DNA from: Alphaproteobacteria bacterium SO-S41
GTDB lineage: Bacteria; Pseudomonadota; Alphaproteobacteria; Micropepsales; Micropepsaceae
NCBI GenBank assembly: GCA_019670725.1
Contig: AP024629.1
Location: forward strand, 1,364,001-1,428,000
DNA: 64,000 bases
Direction of reading: 5' to 3'
Made by a program: the position numbers and the translations under genes. The notes beneath the pieces are model-generated. The model made no database searches and was not told the DNA's origin. It worked only from the letters and a program-made list of their open reading frames with translations. Positions 56,923 through 64,000 of this stretch are shown here, in pieces. How positions within the stretch are numbered: position 1 is the stretch's first letter; the number at the start of each line of letters is the position of its first letter.

Positions 56923-57009
56923 GACCCCTTGGCGGAACCGGTAGACGCCGCAGACTTAAAATCTGCTGTCCGTAAGGGCGTGCCGGTTCGAGTCCGGCAG
57001 GGGTCACCA
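56923..57009 (+). tRNA. tRNA-Leu (anticodon UAA)
   Basis: An 87-base tRNA with encoded CCA. The acceptor stem GACCCCT pairs with AGGGGTC. The anticodon stem GCAGA/TCTGC holds the loop CTTAAAA, giving anticodon TAA (Leu). A long variable arm fits a class II tRNA. The T-arm GCCGG-TTCGAGT-CCGGC is present. It marks the left edge of the defence gene cluster; tRNA-Leu genes are frequent integration sites. Confidence 0.95.
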
Positions 57010-57216: not shown

Positions 57217-57630
57217 ATGGATGTCGTCTCAGCACAGAAGCGATCTTCGATGATGTCGAAGATCCGTGGTCGCGACACCATGCCAGAATTGCTGGTCAGG
57301 AAAGCAGCTCGCCGGCTCGGAATTCGATACCGTCTAAACTGCCGACACCTGCCGGGAACTCCGGACTTGGTGATACCCAAGACTAGACGCGTCGTATTCG
57401 TGCATGGGTGCTTTTGGCACAGCCATGCTGGCTGCAAGTTCGCGTACAAGCCCAAGTCGAACGAAGTATTCTGGACGGCAAAATTACAGGCTAACGTGGA
57501 TCGCGATACCCGAGTCACGATCGAACTCGAGGAAAAGGGGTGGGCTGTGTCTGTAGTTTGGGAATGCGAAACAGGCGACCCAAATCGGCTTGAGCAACTT
57601 CTGAGGAACTACGTGCTCGATGCTCACTGA
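57217..57630 (+). CDS. vsr: Very short patch repair (Vsr) endonuclease
   Basis: A 137-residue Vsr endonuclease, which nicks beside T:G mismatches that arise when a 5-methylcytosine deaminates. The family core FVHGCFWHSHAGC is intact (residues about 66-78), as are PGTPDLVIP near 48 (catalytic Asp) and the C-terminal VVWECE. It overlaps the next gene by 11 bases, pairing it with the cytosine-5 methyltransferase whose damage it would repair. First gene of the island operon. Confidence 0.95.
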   Translation: MDVVSAQKRSSMMSKIRGRDTMPELLVRKAARRLGIRYRLNCRHLPGTPDLVIPKTRRVVFVHGCFWHSHAGCKFAYKPKSNEVFWTAKLQANVDRDTRVTIELEEKGWAVSVVWECETGDPNRLEQLLRNYVLDAH

Positions 57631-59104
57631 ATCGGTCGCGTCGCATCTACAGTTGAAATTGAACAGGCTGCGCTCTGGCGCTGCTCCGCGGGTCCTCGAG
57701 CTTTGCTCAGGTTGCGGTGGACTCGCACTCGGTATGGCGGCGGCAGGTTTTGAGCTGAGCGCTCATGTGGAGTCGGATCCGGAAGCTGCGGCAAGCTACG
57801 CTCTGAACTTCGGCAAGGACCGCGTTGCGGGTGACCCCTGGGCCCTACCTCGTGATATGGTGCAGTGCTCACCGGAAGACCTTGTTTCAGATCTTAGTCT
57901 TAGCCAACTTCCTGCAGCGGCCTTTGATGTTTTAGCCGCAGGGTTGCCATGCCAAGCTTTTGCGCGGATCGGCCGATCAAAACTCAGGGCAGTCGCGGGT
58001 GGGCAAGATGATGCGTTTCAACGCGATCCTCGCGCTGCATTGTACAGGCGGTTCCTTCAATACGTCGAAGAAACTCATCCACTCGCAATTGTAATCGAGA
58101 ATGTACCGGACATCCTCAATTTCGGGGGGCACAACGTGCCCGAGGAGATTTGCGACACCCTCGAAATGTCGGGCTATCGAACAGCCTACACGATTCTAAA
58201 TGCCGCTTATTTTGGAGTTCCTCAAGTTCGCGAACGCCTTTTCATAATTGCGCTCTCGCGGTCCTTGAACGTGGCGCCTGAATTTCCCAGCGCGACGCAC
58301 TATCTCGATCTACCGCGTGGCTATGCGAGTTCTCGACGCGTCGCTCTTAAACACGTCAGGCCAGAAAGCCTAAGGTACCACAAAGTGCAGGAGCCCTCAT
58401 CGGAGTTGGCGCCGACGCCTAGCGTACGTCAGGCACTACGTGATCTTCCTCGAATCACAGAGCACCGAACTGATCCCGCAGCCATGCGGCGCAGGAGACT
58501 CAAAGAGGTTCTAGCGTACAGGAACACGACAACCGCGCTCGATGAGTACGCAGAGCAAATGCGCGCTTGGCCTGGGTTCGAATCGCAATCTGGCGCGGAC
58601 GGTCACCTAGTTCGCATCACTCCGCGCGACTTTCCGCTCTTTCGCCGCCTTCCTCATGGATCCGATTATCCGGACGCCCGTCGTCTCGCCGAGGCAATTC
58701 TCCTGGAAACCGCAGAAGCACTTAATCAGACGGACAGGAGAACAAAGGCGTGGAAGGAATTGCAAAAGAGCATCGTACCTCCATACGATCCGGCTAAATT
58801 TCCAAATAAGTGGTGGAAACTTGAGCCGCTCAAACCATCGCGGACGCTCACAGCCCACATTGGAAAAGATACCTACTCGCACATCCACTACGATAGCCTC
58901 CAGGCTCGCACGATTTCTGTAAGGGAGGCGGCCAGGCTACAGTCGTTCCCAGACGGTTTCCGATTCTCAGGCGCGATGAACGCAGCATTTCGGCAAATCG
59001 GGAATGCGGTTCCGCCGCTTCTTGCGCTCGCGGTTGCAAGAAAACTGAAGCAGCAAATCGACCAGGTGGTGGCACCACCGGCGATCGCTCAAGCAGCAGA
59101 GTAG
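57620..59104 (+). CDS. DNA cytosine-5 methyltransferase
   Basis: A 494-residue C5 DNA methyltransferase. SAM motif I is LELCSGCGGLALGM near residues 26-39, the catalytic PCQ motif puts the nucleophile at Cys111, and ENV is at about 160-162. Later motifs QVRERLFI and RTISVREAARLQSFPDGF, and a closing IGNAVPP, are present. The recognition sequence cannot be read from the protein. It begins inside vsr. Confidence 0.95.
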   Translation: MLTESVASHLQLKLNRLRSGAAPRVLELCSGCGGLALGMAAAGFELSAHVESDPEAAASYALNFGKDRVAGDPWALPRDMVQCSPEDLVSDLSLSQLPAAAFDVLAAGLPCQAFARIGRSKLRAVAGGQDDAFQRDPRAALYRRFLQYVEETHPLAIVIENVPDILNFGGHNVPEEICDTLEMSGYRTAYTILNAAYFGVPQVRERLFIIALSRSLNVAPEFPSATHYLDLPRGYASSRRVALKHVRPESLRYHKVQEPSSELAPTPSVRQALRDLPRITEHRTDPAAMRRRRLKEVLAYRNTTTALDEYAEQMRAWPGFESQSGADGHLVRITPRDFPLFRRLPHGSDYPDARRLAEAILLETAEALNQTDRRTKAWKELQKSIVPPYDPAKFPNKWWKLEPLKPSRTLTAHIGKDTYSHIHYDSLQARTISVREAARLQSFPDGFRFSGAMNAAFRQIGNAVPPLLALAVARKLKQQIDQVVAPPAIAQAAE

Positions 59105-59107
59105 ACG

Positions 59108-60646
59108 ATGGCGGGCGAGAACGAAGCGGCGCCCGCGTTCGACTACGCTCCTCCCGGCGCTAGTGCAATGTTGGCGTCTCTCAGGGGAATAGGATACTCG
59201 CCAGCAACTGCGATCGCCGACTTGATCGACAACAGCATCGCCGCAGAAGCCTCTCGCGTACGCCTGGATTTCCTTTGGCGTGGAGCGGCCTCAATCCTGA
59301 GAATTACCGACAATGGTAGCGGCATGGATCGCGACACACTGGTCGAAGCGATGCGTCCAGCCGGCCGCCATCCAAACGCGCCACGAGCTCCCAAAGATCT
59401 AGGGCGCTTTGGGCTGGGTCTCAAAACGGCGTCGCTCTCGCAAGGCAAGCTGCTCGCAGTAGCATCTAAAGTTCCCGGCCAACGCGTGGAGGCGAGATGC
59501 TGGGACTTAGGGCATGTCGAGAAGGTCAATGCGTGGCAACTGCTACAGGGAGTTCCCCAAGAGATTGCTGACGACATCACACTGTTGGACGAAGAGACCC
59601 AGGGCACCGTTGTAATCGTTTCAGGGCTCGATCGTCTGCTCGGAAAGGAAATCTCCGACAACGCGACCGATCGAAATCGATTCTACGCCATGGCACGTAC
59701 TGTCGAGCGCCATCTCGCGATGACTTTCCATCGCTATTTGGAGGGCGCTAGCCCCAAGTTGATGATCACGATCAACGGCTACGACGAAACCTCCAAGATT
59801 CTGCCGTGGGATCCTTTTGCATCCAAGCACCTTGCTACGGCGCCAACCCCAATCGAATACCTGAACCACAGCGGCGGAGCTATCGAAGTTCAGGGATTTG
59901 TCCTCCCACATCGCGACCGCATGACCAGCGCAGAATTTGATCTCGCTGAAGGTCCGTCTGGATGGCAGGCCCACGAAGGCTTTTTTGTTTATCGAGGTCA
60001 GCGATTGTTGGTTTCTGGTGGCTGGCTCGGCCTTGGCCCAGGACGGGGTTGGCCGCAAAATGGCGTGCATCGGCTAGCTAGGCTCCGCTTGGATCTACCC
60101 ACGAGCGGTGATCACGAGTGGAAAGTCGATATTAGAAAGTCCTCCGCGACGCCGCCTCCCGCGCTGCGCGGCCGACTCCAGGCGCTCGCCGAGAGCGTCC
60201 GACGTGACGCGCGCGAGATCTTTGTCCAGCGCGCTGGTGGGGGATCGAAGCAACAACGCGACCAGTTGGTGCGCGTGTGGCAGCCAGTTCATTCAAGTCG
60301 TGGCGTTTCCTACAAAATTGATCGCGCACACCCCGTAGTCTCGAGGGCGCTATCAGCGGTTGGCGGCGAGCGTAGTCTAGTGGAGGAAATGCTGGGAGTC
60401 GTTGAAGCCACTGTACCGCTTCAACGCATTTGGCTCGACGTTGTTGAATCCAACGAAACGGCCACGCAGCCGAGCGAAGCGGCAATCCCTGACGATGACG
60501 AGACTTCGCTGCTATCATTGTACCGGCACATGCGAACGGAGCTACAGCTTGCACCGGACGTGGCCAAAGCGCGTTTAATGAAACTTGAGCCGTTCGCGGC
60601 ATATCCCGCGGCGATCCTGCGCCTTCCTGATATTCCGGGGGAGTGA
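59108..60646 (+). CDS. GHKL (MutL/MORC-like) ATPase
   Basis: A 512-residue GHKL ATPase. The N box AIADLIDNSIA places the key Asn at about residue 42; the G1 box DNGSGMD is near 68-74 and the G2 box GRFGLGLKTASLSQG near 99-113. This matches the MutL/MORC-related ATPases found in prokaryotic restriction-modification and defence operons. It starts 3 bases after the methyltransferase stop, and the Z1 gene starts directly after its own stop. Confidence 0.9.
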   Translation: MAGENEAAPAFDYAPPGASAMLASLRGIGYSPATAIADLIDNSIAAEASRVRLDFLWRGAASILRITDNGSGMDRDTLVEAMRPAGRHPNAPRAPKDLGRFGLGLKTASLSQGKLLAVASKVPGQRVEARCWDLGHVEKVNAWQLLQGVPQEIADDITLLDEETQGTVVIVSGLDRLLGKEISDNATDRNRFYAMARTVERHLAMTFHRYLEGASPKLMITINGYDETSKILPWDPFASKHLATAPTPIEYLNHSGGAIEVQGFVLPHRDRMTSAEFDLAEGPSGWQAHEGFFVYRGQRLLVSGGWLGLGPGRGWPQNGVHRLARLRLDLPTSGDHEWKVDIRKSSATPPPALRGRLQALAESVRRDAREIFVQRAGGGSKQQRDQLVRVWQPVHSSRGVSYKIDRAHPVVSRALSAVGGERSLVEEMLGVVEATVPLQRIWLDVVESNETATQPSEAAIPDDDETSLLSLYRHMRTELQLAPDVAKARLMKLEPFAAYPAAILRLPDIPGE

Positions 60647-63535
60647 ATGCCAATCAACCCGGAGTTCCAACGCGAATTGATACAAGTGGCGCAACTTCGG
60701 TTGTCCCAACGATCATCAGAAGCGCCGCTGACACGGGACGAAATCAGCTCGACGGTGGAGCGGCTGTTGGCAGCTTTCCCGGAATGGAAAGACGCTGTCT
60801 CCAAGGACGGCGTCGTCGCGCAGCTCAATGTAATTTTCAGTACGTTTATCGGCGACGAGTCTGTGCTTCGGGCGCGCGATGGGCACGTGCCCTGGCTAAA
60901 GGACGCTGATGTTCGATGGCGATTCTGGGACCGATATCGCACGTACATGATACGGAACCAGACCTCGCAGCCCGCGATCAATTCAATGAATCGCGTCACT
61001 GATCGGATCTTGGACTTGTTGGGCAATCCAGCTTCGGCACGTTCGTTTGATCGACGAGGGATGGTTGTCGGAGACGTCCAATCCGGAAAAACCGGAAACT
61101 ACACGGGCTTGATCTGTAAGGCTACGGACGCGGGTTACAAGGTCATAGTCGTACTGACTGGGCTCAACAACAATCTCCGCAGCCAGACCCAAATCCGTCT
61201 GGATGAAGGGTTTATCGGAAAGGTCAGTGTTCCGATCGGCGAAGACACATCCAGAGTGGTGGGAGCTGGGCAGATCGATCCATCTGCGATCGTAGATTGG
61301 GCGACTAACAGAACCGAGAAGGGCGATTTCAACTGGAAGGCCATGTCTCAGTTTGGTGTCCATCCGGGCGGTCGGCCGTTGCTTCTCGTTGTTAAGAAAA
61401 ATGCGAGTGTTCTGAAGGGCGTTTTGGAATGGATTCGCCTGACCGCCAACGCAGTTGAAAACGGTCGAGCCAAGTTTAGCGGAATGCCCGTGTTAGTCGT
61501 CGACGATGAAGCGGACAACGCATCAGTCGATACGCGCAAGGGTGCTCTAGTCGACGGAATCCCTGCGTCAGATCACAAACCGTCCACCATAAACGGAATG
61601 ATACGCCAGATCCTGAGCAGCTTCGATCAGGTCTCATATGTCGGATACACGGCGACACCCTTTGCAAACATTTTTATCCATCCGGATGCTGAAACAGGGA
61701 AGGAATTGCACGACCTCTTTCCGAGAGATTTCATCGTCAACATGCCGACGCCGGACAACTACATCGGCGCATCAAGGATATTTGGCTACGACCGAGATGA
61801 AGACGCCGGCCTCGATGAGGGAGCGATCGGTCTTCCGAAGCTAGTGGTACCAATTACAGACTTCGCGAAGACAGATTCCCGAAGAGAAGTGTCCGGTTGG
61901 ATGCCACCTGCTCACAAGGTTGGCCACATTCCCTTGATTGAGAACGAGGATGGAATTCCCGAATCTCTTCTAAGTGCGATCCGATCGTTCGCTCTAGCGG
62001 TGGCCGCGCGACGAGTGCGCGGGCAAGGCAGCGAGCACAACAGCATGCTGGTCCATGTCACGAGATACCAGGCCGTGCAGAAGAGGGTTGTACTTCAGAT
62101 ACAGGAGGCCCTGGATACGATTGCTAATTCCGTTCGCTACGGCGGAAAAGAGGGTATGCGCCCATTGTACGAGCAATGGAAAAGCGATTTTGAGCCCGTC
62201 ACAAGCACGCTTGCGTTGCCAGATTGCGCGCCTGTTGCGTGGTCTGAGGTTCGCGAAGCGCTTCGAGCGACCATCAATTCGATCACGATCCGCGAGATAA
62301 ATGGCAGCTCCGCAGATGTTCTCGACTATGACGCGAACAAGGGTCGCGGGCTCAATGTAATCGCGGTTGGTGGTGATAAGCTCGCGCGGGGACTAACTCT
62401 TGAAGGACTGTCGATCACCTATTTTCTGCGCGGCTCCTCTATGTACGACACCCTTCTTCAGATGGGGCGATGGTTTGGATATCGGCACGGATATCTCGAC
62501 CTTTGTAGGCTCTACACAAGTCAGGATCACATCGACTGGTATGGCCACATAGCGCAAGCCAATGACGAGCTTCGACGCGAGTTCGATCGTATGGAAGCTG
62601 TTGGCGCTGATCCTATACAATTTGGATTGCGTGTCCGGAGCCATCCCAGCCTCACCGTCACATCGCGCGCAAAGATGAGGCACGGTACCGAGCTGAAAGT
62701 CTCGTTCGCCGGTGATGTGTCGGAGACATCGGTGTTTTCAACTTCACCCCGAACACTCTCTCAGAACTTCTCGGCGGCAGGAAATTTCATTGACCGTCTC
62801 CGCGGTTCCTCAAAGTACGCGCGAGATCCTGAGCAAGTGCGCTCACAAAGTCGAATTAGCAGGTGGGCCGGATCCCACCTTTGGCAAGACGTTGGCGCGT
62901 CCGATGTTATCGACTTTCTCGACTCGTTCTCTACTCATGAGGATGCCGCGAGGGCGAATTCATCTGTCCTGGCAAAATATATCCGGCAGCAGCTGCTAAG
63001 GGGCGAGTTGACGAATTGGAACGTCCTGCTTGTCGGAGGCGACGGCGAAGAAGCGATTTCCGTAGGCGGAGTGTCTGTGAACGCTGTTATTAGGCAACCG
63101 AAGGGTGGTTGGCTGAGCGGATCCGACTATCCGAGAGTCATTAAACCTGCCGAGAAATTTGTCATTCGGCGTTTGCTAAGTCCACGTGATGAAGCCGTTG
63201 ACTTGGACGCAGCCGCATTTGACGCAGCGATGGCTGAGACCGTTGCCACGCCGCCCAAGCGCCAGCGAAAGACAGATGACCCTCCTGCCTTTCCCTCTGG
63301 AGTGTTTCTAAGAAAGCGGAGGAGCCCCACCCACGGCCTGCTGCTACTGTATCCACTTGCGCGACTGGCCCCGTTGAAGCGGCCAGACGGGAGCGAATTC
63401 AATCACTTGTTTCTGCCGGAAGAACCCAATCCGATCGGTCTTGGAATAAGCTTTCCAGCCTCGGAGAACGCCGCGTCGGTCACATACGTTGTAAACAGCA
63501 TCTACGACACGACCGATGATGATGGCGACGCATGA
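60647..63535 (+). CDS. Z1-domain superfamily 2 helicase-like ATPase
   Basis: A 962-residue Z1-family protein. Walker A is GDVQSGKT (about 142-149), Walker B is VLVVDDEAD (about 282-290), then YVGYTATPFANIF near 331 and the motif V/VI region LARGLTLEGL...QMGRWFGYR near 579-612. Z1 proteins accompany MutL/MORC ATPases in defence operons. The ATG at 60647 directly abuts the previous stop; the downstream gene overlaps by 4 bases. Confidence 0.93.
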   Translation: MPINPEFQRELIQVAQLRLSQRSSEAPLTRDEISSTVERLLAAFPEWKDAVSKDGVVAQLNVIFSTFIGDESVLRARDGHVPWLKDADVRWRFWDRYRTYMIRNQTSQPAINSMNRVTDRILDLLGNPASARSFDRRGMVVGDVQSGKTGNYTGLICKATDAGYKVIVVLTGLNNNLRSQTQIRLDEGFIGKVSVPIGEDTSRVVGAGQIDPSAIVDWATNRTEKGDFNWKAMSQFGVHPGGRPLLLVVKKNASVLKGVLEWIRLTANAVENGRAKFSGMPVLVVDDEADNASVDTRKGALVDGIPASDHKPSTINGMIRQILSSFDQVSYVGYTATPFANIFIHPDAETGKELHDLFPRDFIVNMPTPDNYIGASRIFGYDRDEDAGLDEGAIGLPKLVVPITDFAKTDSRREVSGWMPPAHKVGHIPLIENEDGIPESLLSAIRSFALAVAARRVRGQGSEHNSMLVHVTRYQAVQKRVVLQIQEALDTIANSVRYGGKEGMRPLYEQWKSDFEPVTSTLALPDCAPVAWSEVREALRATINSITIREINGSSADVLDYDANKGRGLNVIAVGGDKLARGLTLEGLSITYFLRGSSMYDTLLQMGRWFGYRHGYLDLCRLYTSQDHIDWYGHIAQANDELRREFDRMEAVGADPIQFGLRVRSHPSLTVTSRAKMRHGTELKVSFAGDVSETSVFSTSPRTLSQNFSAAGNFIDRLRGSSKYARDPEQVRSQSRISRWAGSHLWQDVGASDVIDFLDSFSTHEDAARANSSVLAKYIRQQLLRGELTNWNVLLVGGDGEEAISVGGVSVNAVIRQPKGGWLSGSDYPRVIKPAEKFVIRRLLSPRDEAVDLDAAAFDAAMAETVATPPKRQRKTDDPPAFPSGVFLRKRRSPTHGLLLLYPLARLAPLKRPDGSEFNHLFLPEEPNPIGLGISFPASENAASVTYVVNSIYDTTDDDGDA

Positions 63536-64000
63536 CTTTGCTAGCCCATACATGGGAACTACTTCAACTTGAGGCGCGCACCGAGGCGGGCTGGCATCTA
63601 CGCAGAATTCTACCGACATCTCCCTGTGAGATCTTCGCCGCTCTGCATCAGCCTGACGGTACGCCTGGCTTGGTGCTGGAGGTCAGTCCACTTTCGTTTG
63701 GATCATATCCAGAGATACCAGTCGCAGTTGGGTTCCGGCTCGTGTCCCAACTGATTGGCCACAGCCGGAACGGCCGTGTCCGTGTAATCTTGTCTTTAGC
63801 GGACCCCGCTTATTCGGCTGTGTTCTCGGTGCTCTGCATGGATTGCGCCGAATGCTTGGCGAACGAAATCGACGAGCGCAGCGCGTTAGCGCGCTTTGTA
63901 GGTCGGTTGCTAGTCTGGCAGGAATTTATGGAGCGTCGGGGCACCGGCGGCCTCCCAGAAAAGGCAGCTTTAGGTCTAATGGGCGAGCTCGTCGTCTTAG
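63532..64000 (+). CDS. PD-(D/E)XK motif protein, DUF4420 (partial, runs off the window)
   Basis: The ATG at 63532 overlaps the Z1 stop (ATGA), and the frame stays open to the end of the window (about 156 residues). The text MTLLAHTWELLQLEA at the start and RLLVWQEFMERRG...GLMGELVVL near the edge match the DUF4420 family, predicted PD-(D/E)XK nucleases. The nuclease core should lie beyond the window. Confidence 0.82.
   Translation, partial: MTLLAHTWELLQLEARTEAGWHLRRILPTSPCEIFAALHQPDGTPGLVLEVSPLSFGSYPEIPVAVGFRLVSQLIGHSRNGRVRVILSLADPAYSAVFSVLCMDCAECLANEIDERSALARFVGRLLVWQEFMERRGTGGLPEKAALGLMGELVVL

Follow-up and report, generated by a model that had tools for sequence, protein, structure and literature searches.

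Operons that join a paraMORC/MORC ATPase to a Z1-type SF2 helicase, a novel restriction endonuclease and an AIPR protein were described by Iyer, Abhiman and Aravind in 2008 (PMC2292703), and the portion of that paper available to us names Dcm-type methylases and Vsr as frequent partners and proposes a restriction-modification (RM) role with DNA looping. Miller 2022 (PMC9523054) presented, as functionally untested, a system made of Z1, PD-(D/E)XK and C5-cytosine DNA methyltransferase (MTase) proteins; according to the accessible part of that paper, its type II further includes AIPR and a MORC-type ATPase, and MzaA occurs in only a few type II systems. The same part cites the five-gene Mza system (mzaABCDE) of Gao 2020 as validated. 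CglI and NgoAVII consist of a C5 MTase, a nuclease and a Z1 ATPase that is triggered by unmethylated sites, and their cleavage needs extensive ATP hydrolysis (PMC4267653). A Shedu protein of the related paraMORC3 kind, which combines GHKL and PD-(D/E)XK domains, blocks phage and requires both activities to do so (PMC12137116).

The window analysed here is a stretch of 64,000 nucleotides (bases 1364001-1428000 of a 4.44-Mb contig) from Alphaproteobacteria bacterium SO-S41. A first-pass annotation of this DNA had recognized five consecutive plus-strand genes, overlapping or abutting, at 57217-64000, and had proposed to look for a completed DUF4420 gene and an AIPR gene past position 64000. All five ORFs are at those positions, the DUF4420 gene runs 527 nt past the window edge, and the AIPR gene follows directly. 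The operon comprises six tightly packed genes in the order Vsr, C5 MTase, B, C, D and E, all open and of full length:

57217..57630, plus strand, Vsr-type mismatch endonuclease (137 aa; TIGR00632, PDB 1cw0)
57620..59104, plus strand, C5-cytosine DNA methyltransferase (494 aa; PF00145, TIGR00675)
59108..60646, plus strand, B, MzaB-like GHKL (MutL/paraMORC) ATPase (512 aa; PADLOC MzaB)
60647..63535, plus strand, C, MzaC-like Z1 SF2 ATPase/translocase (962 aa; PADLOC MzaC, PF10593)
63532..64527 (L002:9532-10527), plus strand, D, MzaD-like DUF4420 PD-(D/E)XK nuclease (331 aa; PF14390, PADLOC MzaD)
64529-66586 (L002:10529-12586), plus strand, E, MzaE-like AIPR protein (start inferred; PF10592, PADLOC MzaE)

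The junctions of the first five genes are, in order, an 11-nt overlap, a 3-nt gap, an abutting join and a 4-nt overlap. The longest AIPR ORF overlaps the DUF4420 gene, and the ATG located 1 nt after the DUF4420 stop (64529) is the probable start codon.

Pfam, NCBIfam and PADLOC were concordant on gene identities throughout the operon, and all six family assignments, AIPR included, scored above their cut-offs and far above chance. Vsr matched TIGR00632 with 132 bits (cut-off 97.85), and the MTase matched the dcm model TIGR00675 with 161 bits (cut-off 100.7) and PF00145 with 179 bits. The B, C, D and E proteins matched HATPase_c_3 (93 bits, cut-off 25), Z1 PF10593 (260 bits, cut-off 25), DUF4420 PF14390 (222 bits, cut-off 27) and AIPR PF10592 (306 bits, cut-off 25), respectively. 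The PADLOC models MzaB (413 bits), MzaC (753 bits), MzaD (105 bits) and MzaE (373 bits) hit consecutive genes in B-C-D-E order, in agreement with the earlier placement of the ATPase and Z1 protein in Mza families. However, the NCBIfam MZA equivalog cut-offs were all missed (MzaB 483 against 850 bits, MzaC 856 against 1500, MzaD 165 against 420 and MzaE 510 against 1050). MzaA is absent at the locus: the PADLOC MzaA model found two matches in the genome, at 1.63 and 1.83 Mb, neither near the operon, and the gene immediately upstream of B is the MTase. Because of the missed cut-offs and the absence of MzaA, we regard the operon as an Mza relative; the earlier label "Mza-like" is apt for the B to E genes and does not extend to strict Mza.

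Comparison with the described systems places the locus, by its gene content, as a well-preserved member of a system type already known from Iyer 2008 and Miller 2022; the first-pass annotation had likewise treated the type as known. The gene families are those of the operons of Iyer 2008 and stand in conserved neighbourhoods, and the available text of that paper does not count, locus by locus, how often the MTase is kept or exchanged, unlike the present survey (PMC2292703). All components of type II of Miller 2022 (Z1, DUF4420, C5 MTase, AIPR and MORC-like GHKL) are found here in one operon, together with Vsr, which the accessible part of that paper does not mention for type II (PMC9523054). 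The B, C, D and E genes are homologous to those of Mza and consecutive; unlike Mza, the locus has no MzaA, misses the NCBIfam cut-offs and has a C protein outside the MzaA-bearing tree group. A C5 MTase, a Z1-domain SF2 ATPase and a nuclease are common to CglI/NgoAVII and this locus, but the nuclease of that three-gene system is a PLD-B3 protein, and GHKL, DUF4420 and AIPR are missing from it (PMC4267653). The eight locus proteins that were examined include no PLD-B3 protein. What this work adds is the full extent of the operon, the island that carries it, and counts of how often the MTase is retained or exchanged.

The predicted active sites of the core proteins are largely intact. MutL-type GHKL ATPases use Glu as the general base. 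In the B protein, Asp38 occupies the usual position of this Glu, as does Asp in 81/81 homologues, and the other GHKL motifs are intact; this substitution merits a biochemical look. The C protein has Walker A and DDE motifs, and its AlphaFold2 model (pLDDT 82.8) shows two SF2 lobes at about residues 90-660, nearest to dsDNA/dsRNA translocases (Z 14.5 to 13), among them Mfd (Z 14.5), FANCM (13.9) and RIG-I. In the DUF4420 protein, E152, D182, E191 and K193 are invariant across the 80 homologues that cover these positions. For AIPR, a structure model was built on the homologue of locus L018 rather than on the window's own protein (pLDDT 87.4, pTM 0.65). Residues 1-192 of this model align with the restriction-endonuclease folds of AF1548 (Z 9.7), FokI (Z 9.4, rmsd 4.5, 154 aligned), HamA (7.9) and MspJI (7.2), a fold reading that rests on the VIA-align comparison; with Foldseek alone, AIPR had no significant match in the PDB. 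In the homologue alignment, this N-terminal domain has the conserved Asp and lacks the conserved Lys of D...(D/E)xK. Residues 216-367 matched the ParB N-terminal domain weakly (Z 5.8, below the level trustworthy alone), so that the middle domain is possibly ParB-like. A conserved AIPR stretch, QIVNGGQTT, may be related to the DGQQR motif found in DUF262 proteins.

The operon is located next to a tRNA gene that carries one copy of a direct repeat:

56923..57009, plus strand, tRNA-Leu (TAA), integration site (ARAGORN)
56951..57009, plus strand, 59-nt left attachment repeat, the 3' part of tRNA-Leu (exact-match script)

An exact second copy of the 59-nt repeat lies beyond the window (genome 1449454-1449512), beside a tyrosine integrase gene, and these two copies are the only ones in the 71 kb examined. 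The repeats enclose 28.5 kb, with the operon at the tRNA-Leu end and the integrase at the far end. The operon genes have a G+C content of 0.54-0.59, compared with 0.647 for the window. Another genome from this genus (G011) has about 3 kb of other sequence after the tRNA and then genes that are found here about 7.8 kb past the second repeat; since its tRNA joins genes lying past that repeat here, this genome lacks the island. Judged by these features, the operon was acquired horizontally, as cargo of an integrative island at tRNA-Leu. A further element may occupy the sequence that separates the second repeat from the point where synteny resumes: immediately after that repeat, L003:12513-13000 has a 99% identical copy at genome 500421-500891, a hint at such a second element. 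The island also carries, on the minus strand between operon and integrase (L003:432-5885), an ImuA-ImuB-DnaE2-like mutagenesis cassette made up of a DnaE2-type polymerase (DNA_pol3_alpha), an ImuB-like IMS protein and one more ORF.

Overlapping 938- and 271-aa genes lie on the minus strand 13 nt past the AIPR gene and convergent with it (L002:12600-16129; about 66600-70129 in window coordinates). Searches of Pfam, PHROGs, NCBIfam and PADLOC gave no match for this pair, and none of the other loci in our 84-locus survey set was found to have it. Homologues of the pair stand directly after a Vsr-MTase-B-C-D-E operon on a plasmid of Rhizobium sp. B230/85 (NZ_CP072161), where an ATP-binding protein and HNH endonuclease pair lies just upstream of Vsr on the opposite strand (L124:3201-5332). 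Sinorhizobium sp. B11 has a homologue of the 271-aa gene with its own large partner gene and without the Vsr-MTase-B-C-D-E operon. Speculatively, the 271-aa protein might be an ADP-ribosyltransferase.

The survey set of 84 loci joined the best 80 matches of a profile scan across named genomes with three plasmid loci and the window itself. Genes were assigned by iterative profile searches seeded with the window's proteins, and MzaA was seeded from a plasmid locus. The surveyed loci came from proteobacteria, actinomycetes, Bacteroidota, cyanobacteria, Chloroflexota, Bacillota, Verrucomicrobiota and methanogens, and Z1 matches in phage records were only distant and partial. Complete loci were taken as those with a full B-C-D-E set and flanks of 4 kb or more on either side; of these 58, 57 have a C5 MTase within 4 kb and 41 have Vsr within that distance. 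Since the 80 loci are the best matches to one profile, near-copies included, these counts are descriptive. In the sole exception, L085, an MTase lies 5.4 kb upstream. All 21 complete loci that bear MzaA have a C5 MTase. The window's own 4.44-Mb genome has only two C5 MTases and one Vsr in total, so the chance of such proximity is about 1%. The first-pass annotation had called the attached Vsr/MTase pair poorly characterized; the pair is present, but it is not peculiar to this locus, as an MTase is near-universal in the family.

A quick tree of the C protein, built without bootstrap, confined MzaA to one part: its distribution required three changes, against a mean of 23 in 500 shuffles, and 27 of the 30 loci of one group carried it. 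In the other three (L046, L051 and L056), the C gene is near a contig end, so MzaA may lie beyond. The C protein of the window is a long, unplaced branch outside this group, flagged as long and of unsure exact placement; its best identities are 50% over 650 columns (L064) and 46% over the full length (L018).

On the same tree, the MTase switches side or strand at least 24 times, yet it is nearly always present, as would be expected if the core needs self-protection. Several pairs of loci combine similar cores with dissimilar MTases: L030/L033 (core 84% identical, MTases 34%), L030/L035 (89% and 45%), L020/L021 (93% and 50%) and L053/L059 (84% and 44%). The MTase identities are the best among all MTases within 6 kb, as two loci carry two, and the pairs share history, so that they amount to a handful of events. 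The pair L023/L025 was dropped as a swap once all MTases within 6 kb were compared, and L081 was left out of the swap pairs because its AIPR gene is split and it may be degenerate. Across pairs, the partial rank correlation between MTase and core identity was 0.02 with Vsr held, and that of Vsr was 0.34 with the MTase and 0.33 with the core, from few independent swaps, which places Vsr no closer to the MTase cassette than to the core. A recognition domain in the core was sought by sliding identity along B, C, D and E, and no hypervariable segment was particular to the MTase-swapped close pairs in comparison with MTase-kept pairs. These patterns suggest that the MTase is a standard but exchangeable part of the Mza-type family. 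Either the swapped MTases read the same motif, or the core does not fix the motif, and the data fit both; near-identical cores with dissimilar MTases are hard to reconcile with a fixed core motif unless the replacements are isospecific.

We propose, with a probability of about 0.7, that the operon is an ATP-dependent 5mC RM-type anti-phage system in which the MTase is a replaceable cassette and Vsr its repair partner, a reading drawn from sequence and from analogy with the systems above. The C5 MTase, an enzyme class assigned from sequence, would methylate a short motif across the host genome, and Vsr would repair the T:G mismatches that arise from deaminated 5-methylcytosines. Motifs and folds suggest that incoming unmethylated DNA would be engaged by a B-C-D-E complex, in which the Z1 SF2 ATPase (C) may move along or remodel DNA, the GHKL ATPase (B) may act as an ATP-gated clamp, and the DUF4420 protein (D), with its E-D-ExK site intact, would cut DNA. 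AIPR (E), whose restriction-endonuclease-like N-terminal domain is without the canonical lysine, may serve recognition or assembly. The B-C-D-E core would be kept while the identity, side and orientation of the MTase change.

The MTase has PCQ, ENV and QxRxR motifs. Vsr matches PDB 1cw0 (E 1e-23) and has the catalytic residues E24, D50, H63 and H68; H63 is His in 34/54 homologues and thus less conserved than the other catalytic residues of the operon, all of which are highly conserved. The operon's Vsr is the only one in the genome. We favour a putative role of Vsr in mismatch repair where the motif is methylated. Caulobacter pays a cost for losing a solitary C5 MTase because of a Vsr-like protein (PMC12907096), and by this analogy an addiction effect of Vsr alongside repair is possible.

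A different view, which we consider unlikely, is that B-C-D-E is an infection-sensing module, abortive or DNA-structure-sensing, that does not read methylation, with the MTase and Vsr as a neighbour that hitch-hikes or is selected separately, perhaps as a stabilizing or anti-anti-restriction cassette. AIPR proteins take their name from abortive infection, the PADLOC and NCBIfam Mza A-E models contain no MTase, and the MTase varies in identity, side and orientation while the core stays. If the construct of Gao 2020 was without an MTase, methylation-based self-protection may be unnecessary. However, the presence of a C5 MTase in nearly every complete locus, across many phyla and archaea, is far above the hitch-hiking expectation, and an MTase is present again after each replacement.

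It is less probable still, and in our judgement doubtful, that Vsr is the working nuclease of the restriction complex instead of an MTase repair enzyme, for instance a nickase licensed by the MutL-like B. MutL is a known helper of Vsr, and the GHKL B protein resembles MutL. In 10/54 loci Vsr directly adjoins the core and stands apart from the MTase, and it is fairly similar in some MTase-swapped pairs, such as L033/L034 (MTase 37%, Vsr 73%). Against this, 17 of the 58 complete loci (about 30%) have no Vsr within 4 kb, the D protein already offers an invariant nuclease site, and in 40/54 loci no more than 500 bp separate Vsr from the MTase; Vsr never occurs without an MTase, which carries little weight since nearly every locus has one. 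The last alternative, a decayed or inactive island remnant, fits horizontal acquisition and the lower G+C content but is very improbable given six open, full-length ORFs with conserved catalytic residues.

A further idea can be offered tentatively, as one that is rather unlikely to hold: the core may have no fixed recognition sequence of its own and may take its self/non-self specificity from the linked 5mC MTase, either the protein or its mark, so that specificity would be changed by a cassette swap alone, and the sigma-factor Mza may be a lineage derived from this RM family, its MTase having been omitted from current models. Mza is catalogued as a five-gene system; the near-universal C5 MTase of the surveyed loci, present also in 21/21 complete MzaA-bearing ones, makes the whole family worth testing as ATP-dependent RM. 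Near-identical cores with dissimilar MTases would allow the seat of specificity to be addressed by a simple swap experiment.
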